This document shows, piece after piece, positions 17,226 through 45,449 of a DNA stretch of 64,000 nt. The notes under the pieces are model-generated. The model made no database searches. It was not told where the DNA came from and saw only the letters and a program-made list of their open reading frames with translations. Position 1 is the first letter of the stretch, and each line of letters starts with the position of its first letter. A program made the position numbers and the translations under genes. This stretch comes from Kribbella sp. ALI-6-A (GTDB taxonomy: Bacteria; Actinomycetota; Actinomycetes; Propionibacteriales; Kribbellaceae): contig NZ_MTQN01000010.1 of assembly GCF_001984195.1 (NCBI RefSeq), forward strand, positions 1,054,001-1,118,000, in the 5' to 3' direction.

Positions 17226-18197
17226 ATGCGTTCCAGTCGGTTGCTGTCGATCTTGTTGCTGCTGCAGACGCGGCGGCAGCTGACGGCACGCGAATTGGCC
17301 GACGAGCTGGAGGTTTCACTGCGGACGATCTACCGCGACGTCGAGGCATTGGCAGCCGCGGGCGTGCCCGTGTACGCGGATCAGGGCCGGGCCGGCGGAT
17401 ACCGGCTCGTCGACGGGTACCGGACGCGGCTGACCGGATTGACCGAGCAGGAGGCCGCCGCGCTGTTCCTGGTGGGCATGCCCGGTCCTGCCGCAGCGCT
17501 CGGGCTGACCGCGGAGACGAGTGCGGCGGAGCTGAAGTTGCTGGCCGCGCTGGCGCCGGACCAGCGGGATCGGGCCGGGCGGCTGAAGAACCGGTTCTAC
17601 CTGGACATGCCGGCCTGGTACTCCGACGCCGAGGACTCGCCGCAGCTCGCACCGGTCGCGGAGGCGGTGCTGCACGACCGCCGGATCAAGGTGCTCTACC
17701 GCCGCTGGGAGGCCCCGCGCGAGGTGGAGCGCACCCTCGATCCGTACGGCCTCGTGCTGAAGAACGGCAGCTGGTACGTCGTGGCCTCGGCCTCCGGCGC
17801 GGTCCGGACCTACCGGGTCTCCAACATCCTCGACCTGACGGTGACCGGCGAGGAGTTCACCCGCCCGCCCGGGTTCGACCTGGCGACGGTGTGGCGCGAA
17901 CACCTGGAGGAGTTCGACCAGCGGCGCTTCACCGGTACGGCGGTGGTGCGGGTGTCGGCGCGACTCGTGAACCGGCGCAAGGACGTGTCGTTTCCCGTGC
18001 TGGTGAAGGCGATCGAGGCCGCCGAACCGGCCGAGGACGGCACGGTGACGGTGACCGTGCCGATCGAGTCGGTCGGCAACGCCGCGGCGCAGTTCATCCG
18101 GTACGGCGACGAGCTCGAGGTGCTCGCGCCCGACGAGGTGCGGGCCGAGATCAGGCGGTTGGCGACGACGGTGGCCGAGCTCTATCCCGCGCCGTGA
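17226..18197 (+). CDS. WYL-domain transcriptional regulator (YafY type)
   Basis: A 323-residue regulator with an N-terminal helix-turn-helix (RLLSILLLLQTRRQLTAREL and VSLRTIYRDVEAL, residues about 5-42). A WYL domain around IKVLYRRWEAPREVERTLDPYGL with GSWYVVA follows, then a C-terminal WCX-like region. WYL domains sense nucleic acids or small ligands. The matching boxes at its own promoter and at the duplicated-domain gene define a small candidate regulon. The 3' end overlaps the convergent peptidase gene by 47 bases. Confidence 0.9.
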   Translation: MRSSRLLSILLLLQTRRQLTARELADELEVSLRTIYRDVEALAAAGVPVYADQGRAGGYRLVDGYRTRLTGLTEQEAAALFLVGMPGPAAALGLTAETSAAELKLLAALAPDQRDRAGRLKNRFYLDMPAWYSDAEDSPQLAPVAEAVLHDRRIKVLYRRWEAPREVERTLDPYGLVLKNGSWYVVASASGAVRTYRVSNILDLTVTGEEFTRPPGFDLATVWREHLEEFDQRRFTGTAVVRVSARLVNRRKDVSFPVLVKAIEAAEPAEDGTVTVTVPIESVGNAAAQFIRYGDELEVLAPDEVRAEIRRLATTVAELYPAP

Positions 18198-32911: not shown

Positions 32912-34273
32912 GTGAACCGGCGAATCTTCGGTCTGGAGAACGAGTACGGCGTCACCTGCACCTTTCGCGGTCAGCGCCGACTGACCCCCGATGAGGTGGC
33001 GCGGTACCTGTTTCGGCGCGTCGTGTCCTGGGGGCGGAGCAGCAACGTCTTCCTCCGCAACGGGGCACGCCTCTACCTCGACGTGGGCTCCCACCCGGAG
33101 TACGCCACCGGCGAGTGCGACTCGGTCACCGACCTGATCGCGCACGACAAGGCCGGTGAGCGGATCCTCGAGGGACTGCTGGTCGACGCCCAGAAGCGGC
33201 TGCACGACGAAGGCATCTTCGGCGACGTCTACCTGTTCAAGAACAACACCGACTCGGCCGGCAACAGCTACGGCTGCCACGAGAACTACCTGGTCAGCCG
33301 GCACGGCGACTTCGCGAAGCTCGCCGACGTGCTGATCCCGTTCCTGGTCACCCGGCAGCTGATCTGCGGCGCCGGCAAGGTGCTGCAGACTCCGCGCGGC
33401 GCGGTGTACTCGGTGTCGCAGCGCGCCGAGCACATCTGGGAGGGCGTCTCCAGCGCGACCACGCGGTCCCGCCCGATCATCAACACCCGCGACGAGCCGC
33501 ACGCGGACGCCGAGCGGTTCCGCCGGCTGCACGTGATCGTCGGTGACTCGAACATGTCCGAGACCACGATGCTGCTCAAGGTGGCCAGCACCGACCTGGT
33601 GCTGCGGATGATCGAGGCCGGCATCGTGATGCGCGACCTGACGCTGGACAACCCGATCCGCGCGATCCGCGAGATCAGCCACGACATGACCGGCCGCCGC
33701 GAGGTCCGGCTGGCCAACGGCCGCGAGGCCAGCGCGCTGGACATCCAGGGCGAGTACCTGTCGAAGGCGCGCGACTTCGTCGACCGCCGCGAGCTCGGTA
33801 CGCCGGCCGTCGAGCGGGCGCTGTCGCTGTGGGAGCGCACGCTGAAGGCGATCGAGTCCGGCGACCTGTCCGGGATCGAGCGCGAGATCGACTGGGTGAT
33901 CAAGTACCGGCTGATCGAGCGCTACCGCCAGCAGAACAACCTCGGCCTGGCCAGCCCGCGAGTGGCCCAGCTCGACCTGGCCTACCACGACATCCACCGG
34001 CCGCGCGGTCTGTACTACCTGCTCGAGCGCAAGGGCGCGGTCACCCGGGTCGTCGACGACTTGCGGGTCTTCGAGGCCAAGTCTGTCCCGCCGCAGACCA
34101 CCCGCGCGCGGCTGCGCGGCGAGTTCATCAAGCGGGCGCAGGAGCGGCGACGCGACTTCACCGTTGACTGGGTGCACCTGAAGCTCAACGACCAGGCCCA
34201 GCGCACGGTGCTGTGCAAGGACCCGTTCAAGTCCCACGACGAGCGCGTCGAGAAGCTGATCGCGAGCATGTGA
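32912..34273 (+). CDS. pafA: Pup--protein ligase
   Basis: Joins the C-terminal glutamate of Pup to lysines of target proteins, marking them for the actinobacterial proteasome. The 453-residue protein begins [17 protein letters not shown] and has [13 protein letters not shown], whose Asp57 is the proposed catalytic base. Further typical segments are [20 protein letters not shown] and the C-terminal [21 protein letters not shown] chose the GTG at 32912 because Pup ligases conserve this start; an ATG at 32882 is in frame. TTGACA at 32830-32835 may be its -35. No pup, dop or prcBA gene is in the window. Confidence 0.96.
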
Positions 34274-42314: not shown

Positions 42315-43415
42315 TCAGGAGTGCTGGGACCCCGACGCGGGTGGTGGTACGTCCACCAGCCGGGCGGCGTGGCGGCCCGACGCGGCCGCGGCCTCGAAGT
42401 ACGCGCGGTCGCCGTCCAGGTCCCGGCCCATCGTCGACAGCTTGACCGGCGCGTCCCGCAGGGCGTCGTACAGGCCCTCGATGCCGACCCGGACGACGCG
42501 GTGCCGCGCCTTCAACGGTTCGGCCGCGTCGCGGACGGCGTCGCCGAAGTCCCCGGCCAGATCCGGTACGACGACGTCGGCGGGCTGCAGCGCCACCCGC
42601 CCGTACGCCGTGAAGTTGTGGTGCGAGATCCCGCGGTGCCGCGGTCGCGGGTCGGCCTCGGAGATGCGCAGGGACGCGACCGCGCGCCCGCCGAGCGTGC
42701 CGACCGCGTTCACGGCCTCACCGGACTGGACGCCCGAGAAGCCCCAGCGCGTGCCGGTGCCGAGGTTGCCCGGTCCCTGGGTGATCACGACCAGCTCGGC
42801 CGCGAGCACGTGGACCGCCGTGAGCAGCCCGGTGTGGACCGTCACGGCCTCGCGGTCGCCGCCGTACGCCTGGCCGACGGTCACCGTCCCGGCCAGCCAG
42901 CCGCTGTCCCGCAGCGACGCGACCGTGCGCGAGAAGGCGAGCGGGAGCGCGCCGCCGTCGGTCATCACGTAGACGACGCGGGTGGTCGGCCGCGTCTCGT
43001 AGACGCCGGCGAGCACGGCGGGCAGTGCCGAGTGCAGATCGGCCACGACGACCGGCGTACCGAACAGGTCGTCGGCGTCGCGCAGTACGTCGTGGTCGGG
43101 GGAGTCCTGCTCGTCGGCGCCGAGCACCATCGCCTGGAGCGGGGTGTAACGGGCCTTGACCAGGTGGCCGTTCTCCGGCGGGTCGGCCGGCAGCCGGTCG
43201 GGGATCGCGACCACGAGCGCGTACCCGCCGGTGCCGAGGCCGCGGTCGAGGGCGCCGACGTTGAGCAGCACGCGATCGCCCTCGGCGGGCTGACCGACGA
43301 GGTCTGGATAGGCCAGAGCCTTGACGGTCTGCTGTCCGACGCTCACTTTCAGCTCCTGGGCACCCGTCCAGGCGCGCCCGAGCTCGGTCACCACACCCTC
43401 ACGCCAACGGATCAC
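42315..43415 (-). CDS. DUF3866 protein
   Basis: A 366-residue actinobacterial protein of the DUF3866 family. Recognisable segments are IRWREGVVTEL, LAYPDLVGQPAEGDRVLLN, GLGTGGYALVVAIPD, HLVKARYTPLQAMVLGADEQ and VVVADLHSALPAVLAG. The function is unknown. There is no signal or membrane segment. It is divergent from pafB, as in other actinobacteria, and shares the 100-base gap with the SOS box at 43456-43471. Confidence 0.85.
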   Translation of the reverse strand: MIRWREGVVTELGRAWTGAQELKVSVGQQTVKALAYPDLVGQPAEGDRVLLNVGALDRGLGTGGYALVVAIPDRLPADPPENGHLVKARYTPLQAMVLGADEQDSPDHDVLRDADDLFGTPVVVADLHSALPAVLAGVYETRPTTRVVYVMTDGGALPLAFSRTVASLRDSGWLAGTVTVGQAYGGDREAVTVHTGLLTAVHVLAAELVVITQGPGNLGTGTRWGFSGVQSGEAVNAVGTLGGRAVASLRISEADPRPRHRGISHHNFTAYGRVALQPADVVVPDLAGDFGDAVRDAAEPLKARHRVVRVGIEGLYDALRDAPVKLSTMGRDLDGDRAYFEAAAASGRHAARLVDVPPPASGSQHS

Positions 43416-43455
43416 ACGCAGACCCTAAACCTGTTGCGACGAGTCAACACGCATC

Positions 43456-43471
43456 TCGAACGTCTGTTCGG
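43456..43471. promoter_or_regulatory. LexA-type SOS box upstream of pafB
   Basis: TCGAAC-GTCT-GTTCGG matches the actinobacterial SOS box TCGAAC-n4-GTTCGA at 11 of 12 fixed positions. It lies 44-59 bases upstream of the pafB GTG and 40-55 bases from the divergent DUF3866 start. This is what a LexA operator over either promoter would look like. Confidence 0.6.
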
Positions 43472-43515
43472 CGCGCAGTACGCGTTTCGCCCCCGGAACC
43501 CCGTAAGGTGGTCGG

Positions 43516-44475
43516 GTGTCGGCGCGGAAGAGTGAGCGGCTGCTCAACCTGGTGATCTGCCTGCTGGTGGCGCGCACGTACGTGACCAAGGAGCGGATCC
43601 GCGAGGTGGTCGAGGGCTACGCCGGGCAGACCGACGACGCCTTCGAGAAGATGTTCGAGCGCGACAAGGACGAGCTGCGCGATCTCGGCATCCCGATCGA
43701 GATGGGCACCATCGACAAGTTCTTCTCCGACGACGTGGGCTACCGGATCCGCCGCGACGTCTTCGAGCTGCCCGAGGTGCACCTGGAGCCGGACGAGGCC
43801 GCCGTGCTCGGCGTCGCCGCCCGGGTCTGGCAGCACGCCAGCCTGGCCGAGGCGACCACGTCGGCGGTACTGAAGCTGAAGGCGGCCGGGATCCAGACCG
43901 ACCAGTCGGCGCTGAGCGCGATCGAGCCGCATGTCGGCGCGTCCGAGCCGGCCTTCGACCCGCTGTGGTCGGCGGTGGTCAGCCGGACGGTGGTCCGGTT
44001 CGAGCACCGGCGCAGTGGCGCGTCCGAGCCGACCACGCGGACGCTGGAGCCCTGGGGCATCGTGTCCTGGCACGGCCGCTGGTACGTCGTGGGCCGCGAC
44101 CGCGACCGCGAGGCGACCCGGATGTTCCGGATGTCGCGGATCGGCGGCAACGTGAAGACCGTCGGCGGCGCAGGCGCGTTCACCGTGCCGGAGGGCACCG
44201 ACCTGCGCTCGCTGGTCGCCGAGCTGGCGCCGCCGCGGCCGACGTCGGAGGCGAAGGTGCGGGCCCGGACCGGGTCGTGCGTCAGCCTGCGCCGCCGGGC
44301 GAACGCGATCGAGCCGTACGAGGACGGCTGGGACCTGCTGCACGTCCCGTACGCCGACTCCGGTGTGCTGGCCGAGGAGATCGCGTCGTACGGGCCCGAC
44401 GCGGTGGTCGAAGGGCCGGGCGACGTCCTGGACGGCGTACTGCGGCGGCTGCGGACGGTGGCGGGGGTCGGATGA
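43516..44475 (+). CDS. pafB: WYL-domain DNA-damage regulator PafB
   Basis: With PafC it forms the activator of the LexA-independent DNA-damage response of actinobacteria; the WYL domains are thought to sense single-stranded nucleic acid. The 319-residue protein begins with the winged helix (RLLNLVICLLVARTYVTKERIR, then FERDKDELRDLGIPIE), followed by the WYL domain around TRTLEPWGIVSWHGRWYVVGRD and a C-terminal WCX region. TAAGGT near 43503 may be a -10. It overlaps pafC by 4 bases. Confidence 0.95.
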   Translation: MSARKSERLLNLVICLLVARTYVTKERIREVVEGYAGQTDDAFEKMFERDKDELRDLGIPIEMGTIDKFFSDDVGYRIRRDVFELPEVHLEPDEAAVLGVAARVWQHASLAEATTSAVLKLKAAGIQTDQSALSAIEPHVGASEPAFDPLWSAVVSRTVVRFEHRRSGASEPTTRTLEPWGIVSWHGRWYVVGRDRDREATRMFRMSRIGGNVKTVGGAGAFTVPEGTDLRSLVAELAPPRPTSEAKVRARTGSCVSLRRRANAIEPYEDGWDLLHVPYADSGVLAEEIASYGPDAVVEGPGDVLDGVLRRLRTVAGVG

Positions 44476-45449
44476 GCAACGCGCGTGACCAGGTCCAGCG
44501 GCTGCTCGCGCTGGTGCCCTACCTGCGGGAGAACGACGGCGCCCGGGTCGACGACGTCGCCGCGGACTTCGGGGTGCGGCCGAAGCAGATCATCGCCGAC
44601 CTCAAGGTGCTCTGGTTCTGCGGCCTGCCGGGCGCGCAGATGGGCGACCTGATCGAGATCGACATCGACGCCGCCGAGGGCGAAGGCGTCATCCACCTGA
44701 ACAACGCCGACTACCTGGCCCGGCCGCTGCGGCTCGCGGCGGACGAGGCCCTCGCGCTGCTGACCGCGCTGCGCACGCTGCGCGAGGTGACCGCCGGTGG
44801 CGACCGTGACGCCGTCGACCGGGCGATCGGCAAGCTGGAGACGGCCGCCGGGGCGGGCGCCGCGGCCAGCGAGGGTGCCGCCGCACACGTCCACGTCGAG
44901 CCGGCCGCGCCGGAGATCGCCGAGACGGTCAACCGCGGGCTGGCCGGCAAGCGGCGGCTGCACCTGACGTACGACGTACCGTCGCGTGACGAGACGACCG
45001 AGCGGGACGTCGATCCGATGCGGCTGGTGGTCTCCGAGGGCCGCACGTATCTCGAGGCCTGGTGCCGGCTGGCTGAGGACGTGCGGCTGTTCCGCCTGGA
45101 TCGGATTGCCGGGGTCAAGCTGCTCGATCTGCCCAGCGAGCCGCCGCCGGAGGCGACTCCGCGGGACCTGTCCAACGGGATGTTCCAGCCCTCCGACTGC
45201 GACCTGCTCGCCACGGTCTCACTGGCGCCGCCGGCCCGCTGGGTCGCCGAGTACTACCCGACGGAGTCGGTCGAGGAAGGCCCCGACGGCTCGCTGATCA
45301 TCCAGTTGCGGGTGGCCGACACGGCGTGGCTGCAGCGTCTGGTGCTGCGCCTCGGCGGCTCGGCGACGGTCCTCGAACCAGCTGAGCTGGGCGCCCAGAT
45401 CGCCGGCACCGCCCGCGAGGCCTTGTCGGCGTACGACGACCAGCTCTGA
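44472..45449 (+). CDS. pafC: WYL-domain DNA-damage regulator PafC
   Basis: Obligate partner of PafB, 325 residues. The N-terminal helix-turn-helix spans QVQRLLALVPYLREN and FGVRPKQIIADLKVLWFCGLPG. The WYL domain is seen around TTERDVDPMRLVVSEGRTYLEAWCRLAEDVRLFRLDRI, and a C-terminal WCX part ends at SAYDDQL. The ATG overlaps the pafB stop (ATGA), which suits equal production of the two subunits. The original name refers to its place next to pafA rather than to a proteasome role. Confidence 0.95.
   Translation: MSNARDQVQRLLALVPYLRENDGARVDDVAADFGVRPKQIIADLKVLWFCGLPGAQMGDLIEIDIDAAEGEGVIHLNNADYLARPLRLAADEALALLTALRTLREVTAGGDRDAVDRAIGKLETAAGAGAAASEGAAAHVHVEPAAPEIAETVNRGLAGKRRLHLTYDVPSRDETTERDVDPMRLVVSEGRTYLEAWCRLAEDVRLFRLDRIAGVKLLDLPSEPPPEATPRDLSNGMFQPSDCDLLATVSLAPPARWVAEYYPTESVEEGPDGSLIIQLRVADTAWLQRLVLRLGGSATVLEPAELGAQIAGTAREALSAYDDQL

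Follow-up and report, generated by a model that had tools for sequence, protein, structure and literature searches.

The window analysed here, a stretch of 64,000 nucleotides, is part of an 8.1-Mb Kribbella genome and contains the damage regulator genes pafB and pafC, with a LexA-type SOS box in front of them at 43456-43471. We think it likely that this box is the operator by which LexA represses pafBC in Kribbella, such that cleavage of LexA would raise PafBC, which would in turn help to drive recA. Judged by sequence comparison, the box is real, is conserved and belongs to pafBC. LexA control of pafBC had been proposed in a preliminary description of this DNA, and three properties of the box argue for it: it is conserved, it resembles the lexA and recA operators, and it stays with pafB. 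These properties, and the site itself, are computed results.

The box before pafB resembles the lexA and recA operators

The sequence TCGAACGTCTGTTCGG agrees with the actinobacterial LexA operator, the 16-bp palindrome TCGAAC-N4-GTTCGA, at 11 of the 12 arm positions, and the earlier reading of TCGAAC-n4-GTTCGG at 43456-43471 as an 11/12 match proved exact. Taken alone, such a match is only moderate evidence. Two sites in the window (2071 and 43456) have one mismatch to the consensus, and 15 have no more than two, where 3.61 are expected; given this excess, the bare match is not decisive. Therefore, we trained a genus-specific SOS-box matrix on ten distinct boxes from the promoters of lexA and recA, leaving pafB sites out. 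With this matrix the site at 43456 scores 21.0 bits and ranks first in the 64 kb, the next-best place reaching 15.3 bits. Within the window genome, the pafB box shares its arms with the recA box and its GTCT spacer with a lexA box.

Exact occurrences of CGAACRNNTGTTCG in the whole genome number 15, against about 2.9 expected on either strand when the window is modelled as a first-order Markov chain. Seven of these places belong to lexA, recA, ruvC, a Y-family polymerase gene, imuA', a radical SAM gene of the Rv2578c type and pafB. The remaining eight are at genes for which we know of no SOS role, or have no clear target. As controls we took 30 lexA loci and 30 recA loci out of the 38 genus genomes described below; three boxes of 11/12 are found at every one of the lexA loci, and TCGAAC-N4-GTTCGG at every one of the recA loci. 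Thus the pafB site has the palindrome match, the occurrence of its motif at SOS genes of the same genome and the conservation before pafB that are asked of an actinobacterial LexA operator.

A second LexA-like match at 43643-43658 (14.7 bits), just inside pafB, was rejected as an operator: it overlies the conserved FEKMFE codons, and its letters recur in pafB of families that have no upstream box. This match follows from the conserved codons and is a trap for genome-wide scans.

Three LexA-type boxes of the window genome (L045, L046 and L068; C4:434497, C10:18498 and C7:1024368) each have next to them a small gene whose product begins MLGRF.VRP; the third of these genes was read by eye from the DNA. 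The one that was scanned has no Pfam match, and these genes are a possible new SOS family. LexA-type boxes also precede a DUF6319 gene and a DUF4262 gene (L047 and L065).

Conservation of the box across the genus

The genus sample comprised the window genome and 37 further Kribbella genomes, with PafB proteins 91-98% identical. A matrix search of up to 120 bp before pafB found the box in 37 of the 38, at scores of 11.9-23.7 bits. Conservation in close relatives had been set beforehand as a refutation test, and the box came through it. From the end of the box to the pafB start codon the distance is 54 bp in 16 genomes, 44 bp in 14, 53 bp in four, 45 bp in two and 25 bp in one; the box is kept, then, while its spacing to pafB shifts by about 9-10 or 19 bp. 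Fifteen distinct box sequences occur before pafB, and TGTTCG within their right half is invariant in all 37 genomes. Among the 14 genomes of the 44-bp class, the arms of the box carry 1.70 bits per column, compared with 0.28 upstream of the box and 0.91 between it and -18. A chance match without function would fit a window as rich in TCGA words as the excess of near-consensus sites given above indicates, but such an explanation is scarcely credible for a box that recurs throughout the genus, in few distance classes and amid diverged DNA.

The exception, G031, has no box before pafB, and has extra open frames between DUF3866 and pafB that look TetR-like, ClpX-like and transposase-like; one of these extra genes is probably a transposase. 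A 9/12 site between DUF3866 and pafB in this genome was rejected as a box, as it lies inside the open frame that looks TetR-like. The transposase-like frame (L173 2623-3702) is about 0.5 kb before pafB, and the displaced DUF3866 gene (C1:8075914-8076990) has one internal stop codon.

Does the box serve pafB or DUF3866?

The intergenic region that holds the box is shared by pafB and a divergent DUF3866 gene in 35 of the 38 genomes; 17 of these have the end of the box just 17-19 bp from the DUF3866 start. Such an arrangement would suit the alternative raised in the preliminary description, that the box chiefly serves DUF3866 and gives that family a damage link. However, across the 35 genomes the distance from box to DUF3866 varies between 17 and 342 bp, whereas the distance to pafB falls into the narrow classes given above. 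Furthermore, in L006 and L007, where DUF3866 is about 3 kb away (the intervening genes were seen in the L006 genome only), the box has remained next to pafB. No site of at least 10/12 is present at any of the three loci to which DUF3866 has been displaced. By all of these measures the box tracks pafB, not DUF3866, and we regard a box dedicated chiefly to DUF3866 as highly improbable, although in the 17 genomes with the shortest distances it could also affect DUF3866. In the parts of the open-licence PubMed Central literature drawn on here, DUF3866 is mentioned in essential-gene work on Clostridioides difficile.

Genes and promoter of the pafBC locus

The features of the locus are collected in Table 1. 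The start of pafC overlaps the stop of pafB (ATGA), and the two genes form one operon encoding PafB and PafC with HTH, WYL and WCX domains between them, as expected of PafBC. Pfam finds WYL and WCX in PafB and no HTH match there, and NCBIfam has no match for PafB or PafC.

Table 1. Features of the pafBC locus, with positions in the window.
Feature	Position	Strand	Remarks
LexA-type SOS box TCGAACGTCTGTTCGG	43456..43471	+	11/12 consensus; top SOS-matrix site of the window; kept before pafB in 37/38 genus genomes
DUF3866 gene (PF12982)	42315..43415	-	divergent from pafB; shares intergenic region
pafB (WYL PF13280, WCX PF25583), GTG start	43516..44475	+	found in 38/38 genus genomes
pafC (HTH_PafC PF19187, WYL PF13280, WCX PF25583)	44472..45449	+	
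Inferred -10 element TAAGGT of the apparently leaderless pafB promoter	43504..43509	+	six bases before GTG at 43516
Inferred -10 element TAGGGT of the DUF3866 gene	43422..43427	-	six bases before GTG; predicted from sequence

Upstream of the pafB start codon, all 38 genus genomes have TAAGGT (37) or TAGGGT (one) followed by six bases and then GTG. Because of this layout we read the pafB promoter as one that looks leaderless, with a transcription start predicted to match. If pafB is leaderless, the box of the window species lies at about -60 to -45, upstream of the core promoter and without overlap. On that reading, a repressor at the box would not cover the pafB promoter, as had been claimed earlier that it would. 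No clear -35 hexamer was seen before pafB, and a consensus promoter and terminator scan of 43380-43560 returned neither a sigma-70 promoter nor a terminator.

The nearest gene of the pafA/dop (Pup-ligase) family is about 9 kb before pafBC, at 32921-34183 of the window, and a second copy is on contig C4. A further PafB-related stretch, 33% identical, is found at 17229-18170.

A proposed circuit linking LexA, PafBC and recA

In the undamaged cell, LexA would occupy positions around -60 to -45 and hold down transcription from the apparently leaderless pafB promoter. DNA damage would lead to RecA filaments, the filaments to cleavage of LexA, and the cleavage to derepression of pafBC. Once single-stranded DNA had switched it on, the added PafBC would activate its promoters, that of recA included. 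With recA in Kribbella carrying both a LexA box and a PafBC-like element, and with RecA removing LexA, LexA would gate another regulator of its own target recA, which would make a coherent feed-forward loop combined with a positive-feedback loop. From the sites described, we infer the binding of LexA to the box, repression by that binding, and the action of PafBC at the recA element here.

The PafBC-like element at recA takes the form TGTC[CG]G-N10-TANNNT, a relaxed pattern that was chosen after the sequences had been inspected. Counted from where the LexA box begins, it lies 80-88 bp downstream in all 30 recA loci. In nine of these loci it reads TGTCGG, a variant reported for Mycobacterium tuberculosis (PMC8151990; this and the other papers cited are drawn on in part). 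No relaxed PafBC-like element was found within 200 bp of pafB in any of the 38 promoters, and we rejected autoregulation of PafBC through such an element at pafB on this count.

Several observations weigh against the circuit, or against LexA as the repressor within it. The strict RecA-NDp consensus is found at recA in only two of the 30 loci, the window genome being one of them. The conservation contrast seen in the 44-bp class is smaller in the 16 genomes of the 54-bp class (arms 1.89, upstream 0.88 and downstream 1.53 bits), and four genomes (L006, L007, L008 and L013) have weaker boxes of 9/12. The recA element reads TGTCCG in 21 of the 30 loci, a form absent from the M. tuberculosis variants reported in the part of PMC8151990 used here, and this lowers the odds that we give to the feedback loop.

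The place of the box is a further point of this kind: on the predicted start it lies beyond -35 on the upstream side in all but one of the 37 genomes that have it, and repressors are more commonly found elsewhere. The box centre falls at -52.5, -53.5, -61.5 or -62.5 in these 36 genomes, with spacings that differ by close to one or two turns of the helix, and an upstream layout of this sort is seen more often with activators. Such a pattern would be expected if LexA bound the box without repressing pafBC, being neutral or even aiding RNA polymerase, in which case pafBC would stay level or fall upon LexA cleavage. We consider this unlikely, given that LexA is known chiefly as a repressor, that the spacing classes stem from few events, so that the helical phase is statistically not firm, and that in L023, the sole such genome among the 37, the box centre is at -33.5 and would overlap the -35 region.

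A further point is that the window genome has two LexA-type genes, the product of either of which might bind the box. One is lexA, on contig C1; the second, on contig C12 at about 161.6-162.2 kb (L040 1462-2112), passes the NCBIfam model TIGR00498 with 207.2 bits. This gene would lend weight to the idea that another regulator with a LexA-like operator, for example a second LexA-type protein, binds the box and leaves pafBC outside the main SOS circuit. However, the box carries the recA operator arms and lexA operator spacer of its own genome, and the locus of the second LexA-type gene has no SOS-type box, its best matrix score being 5.7 bits. We find binding by such a second regulator quite unlikely, and retain repression of pafBC by LexA as the probable function of the box.

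The larger claim is held more tentatively. That Kribbella has put a LexA-independent damage regulator under LexA, such that PafBC increases in the SOS response and in turn increases recA, whose product removes LexA, a positive-feedback loop with single-stranded DNA being read twice in series, is a tenable possibility that falls a little short of likely.

pafB promoters beyond Kribbella

A search of the order gave a PafB match in 194 of 196 genomes, from which 40 upstream stretches were taken, and a search of the class gave a match in 187 of 197, from which 40 stretches and 29 non-own loci were taken. Scoring covered 108 of these 109 loci, L192 being left out for having 97 bp upstream only. Within 250 bp upstream of these non-genus pafB genes, just three of the 108 loci reach at least 11.9 bits. 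In a second locus set, in which the pafB start was found in 64 of 65 loci (not in L308), none of the 43 non-genus loci exceeds 9.5 bits, and all 21 genus loci, which are not independent of the 38 genomes, reach at least 11.9 bits. These counts add to the points against LexA control just listed. Most pafB promoters outside Kribbella are without the box; thus, PafBC does not need it.

Two of the three non-genus loci at or above 11.9 bits come from one genus of the order (g2), whose family (f2) is probably the Propionibacteriaceae. Sites of at least 9 bits within 100 bp of pafB occur in nine of 19 g2 genomes against 0.07 expected, in species that are related and sites that are thus not independent (L309, L312, L313, L316, L319, L320, L321, L325 and L326). 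The count covers 19 of 20 loci, L328 being left out for having no pafB N-terminus. In family f3, none of 17 loci has a site of this strength within the same distance. The g2 sites differ among themselves, and from those of Kribbella, in sequence and place. As a lead rather than a result, they suggest that wiring of pafB to LexA arose more than once or turns over.

Relation to known systems and implications

LexA control of pafBC-like genes is already known from Myxococcus xanthus, where LexA represses a pafB-pafC-cyaA operon that has a box, weak binding in gel shifts and raised expression without LexA (PMC9705874). In the same organism two PafB/PafC-type proteins, MXAN_1359 and _1360, which may or may not be products of that operon, change in abundance in a LexA-dependent manner (PMC12288472). 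The abundance of PafBC, SiwR and DriD is given as unchanged during the response (PMC12288472). M. xanthus is thus like Kribbella in having a LexA box before a pafBC-like operon, with LexA-dependent expression or abundance on its side (PMC9705874, PMC12288472), and unlike it in belonging to another phylum and in having another box sequence, one that LexA binds weakly (PMC9705874). The Kribbella box, by contrast, strongly matches the lexA and recA operators of its own genus, and recA there also has a PafBC-like element.

PafBC is regarded as the LexA/RecA-independent branch by which actinobacteria respond to DNA damage, and in Mycobacterium smegmatis it is held at a constant level and switched on by single-stranded DNA (PMC6789036, PMC11804915). 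Mycobacterial PafBC resembles that of Kribbella in being a regulator pair with WYL and WCX, and mycobacterial recA is likewise under LexA and PafBC (PMC8223512, PMC11804915). The mycobacterial genes form a pafA-pafB-pafC operon (PMC5656591), whereas the Kribbella pair is preceded by a separate promoter region, which contains the LexA box, and no pafA/dop-family gene is closer to it than about 9 kb. Streptomyces venezuelae shares with Kribbella the 16-bp SOS box and LexA targets that include recA, lexA and a radical-SAM-like gene; it differs in that, in the part of that report used here, pafBC does not appear among the LexA targets, and its authors saw no conservation of the mycobacterial PafBC motif (PMC9380542).

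A search of the open-licence PubMed Central literature, neither exhaustive nor firm on this point, gave no account of an actinobacterium with a LexA box in front of pafBC. Among the titles on Kribbella and LexA seen there, none concerns LexA control of pafBC. The novelty appears to be one of place: strong operators in a genus of actinobacteria whose recA is apparently wired to both regulators.

If LexA sets the amount of PafBC throughout the genus, then the two arms of the damage response would act in series as well as in parallel, and the label 'independent' for PafBC, if this is true, would be valid in some lineages only. The finding is directly testable, given that it concerns one 16-bp operator for which nature supplies spacing variants and one strain without the box. 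As far as sequence can speak, it suggests that the classical SOS and PafBC alarm systems are wired together in Kribbella.
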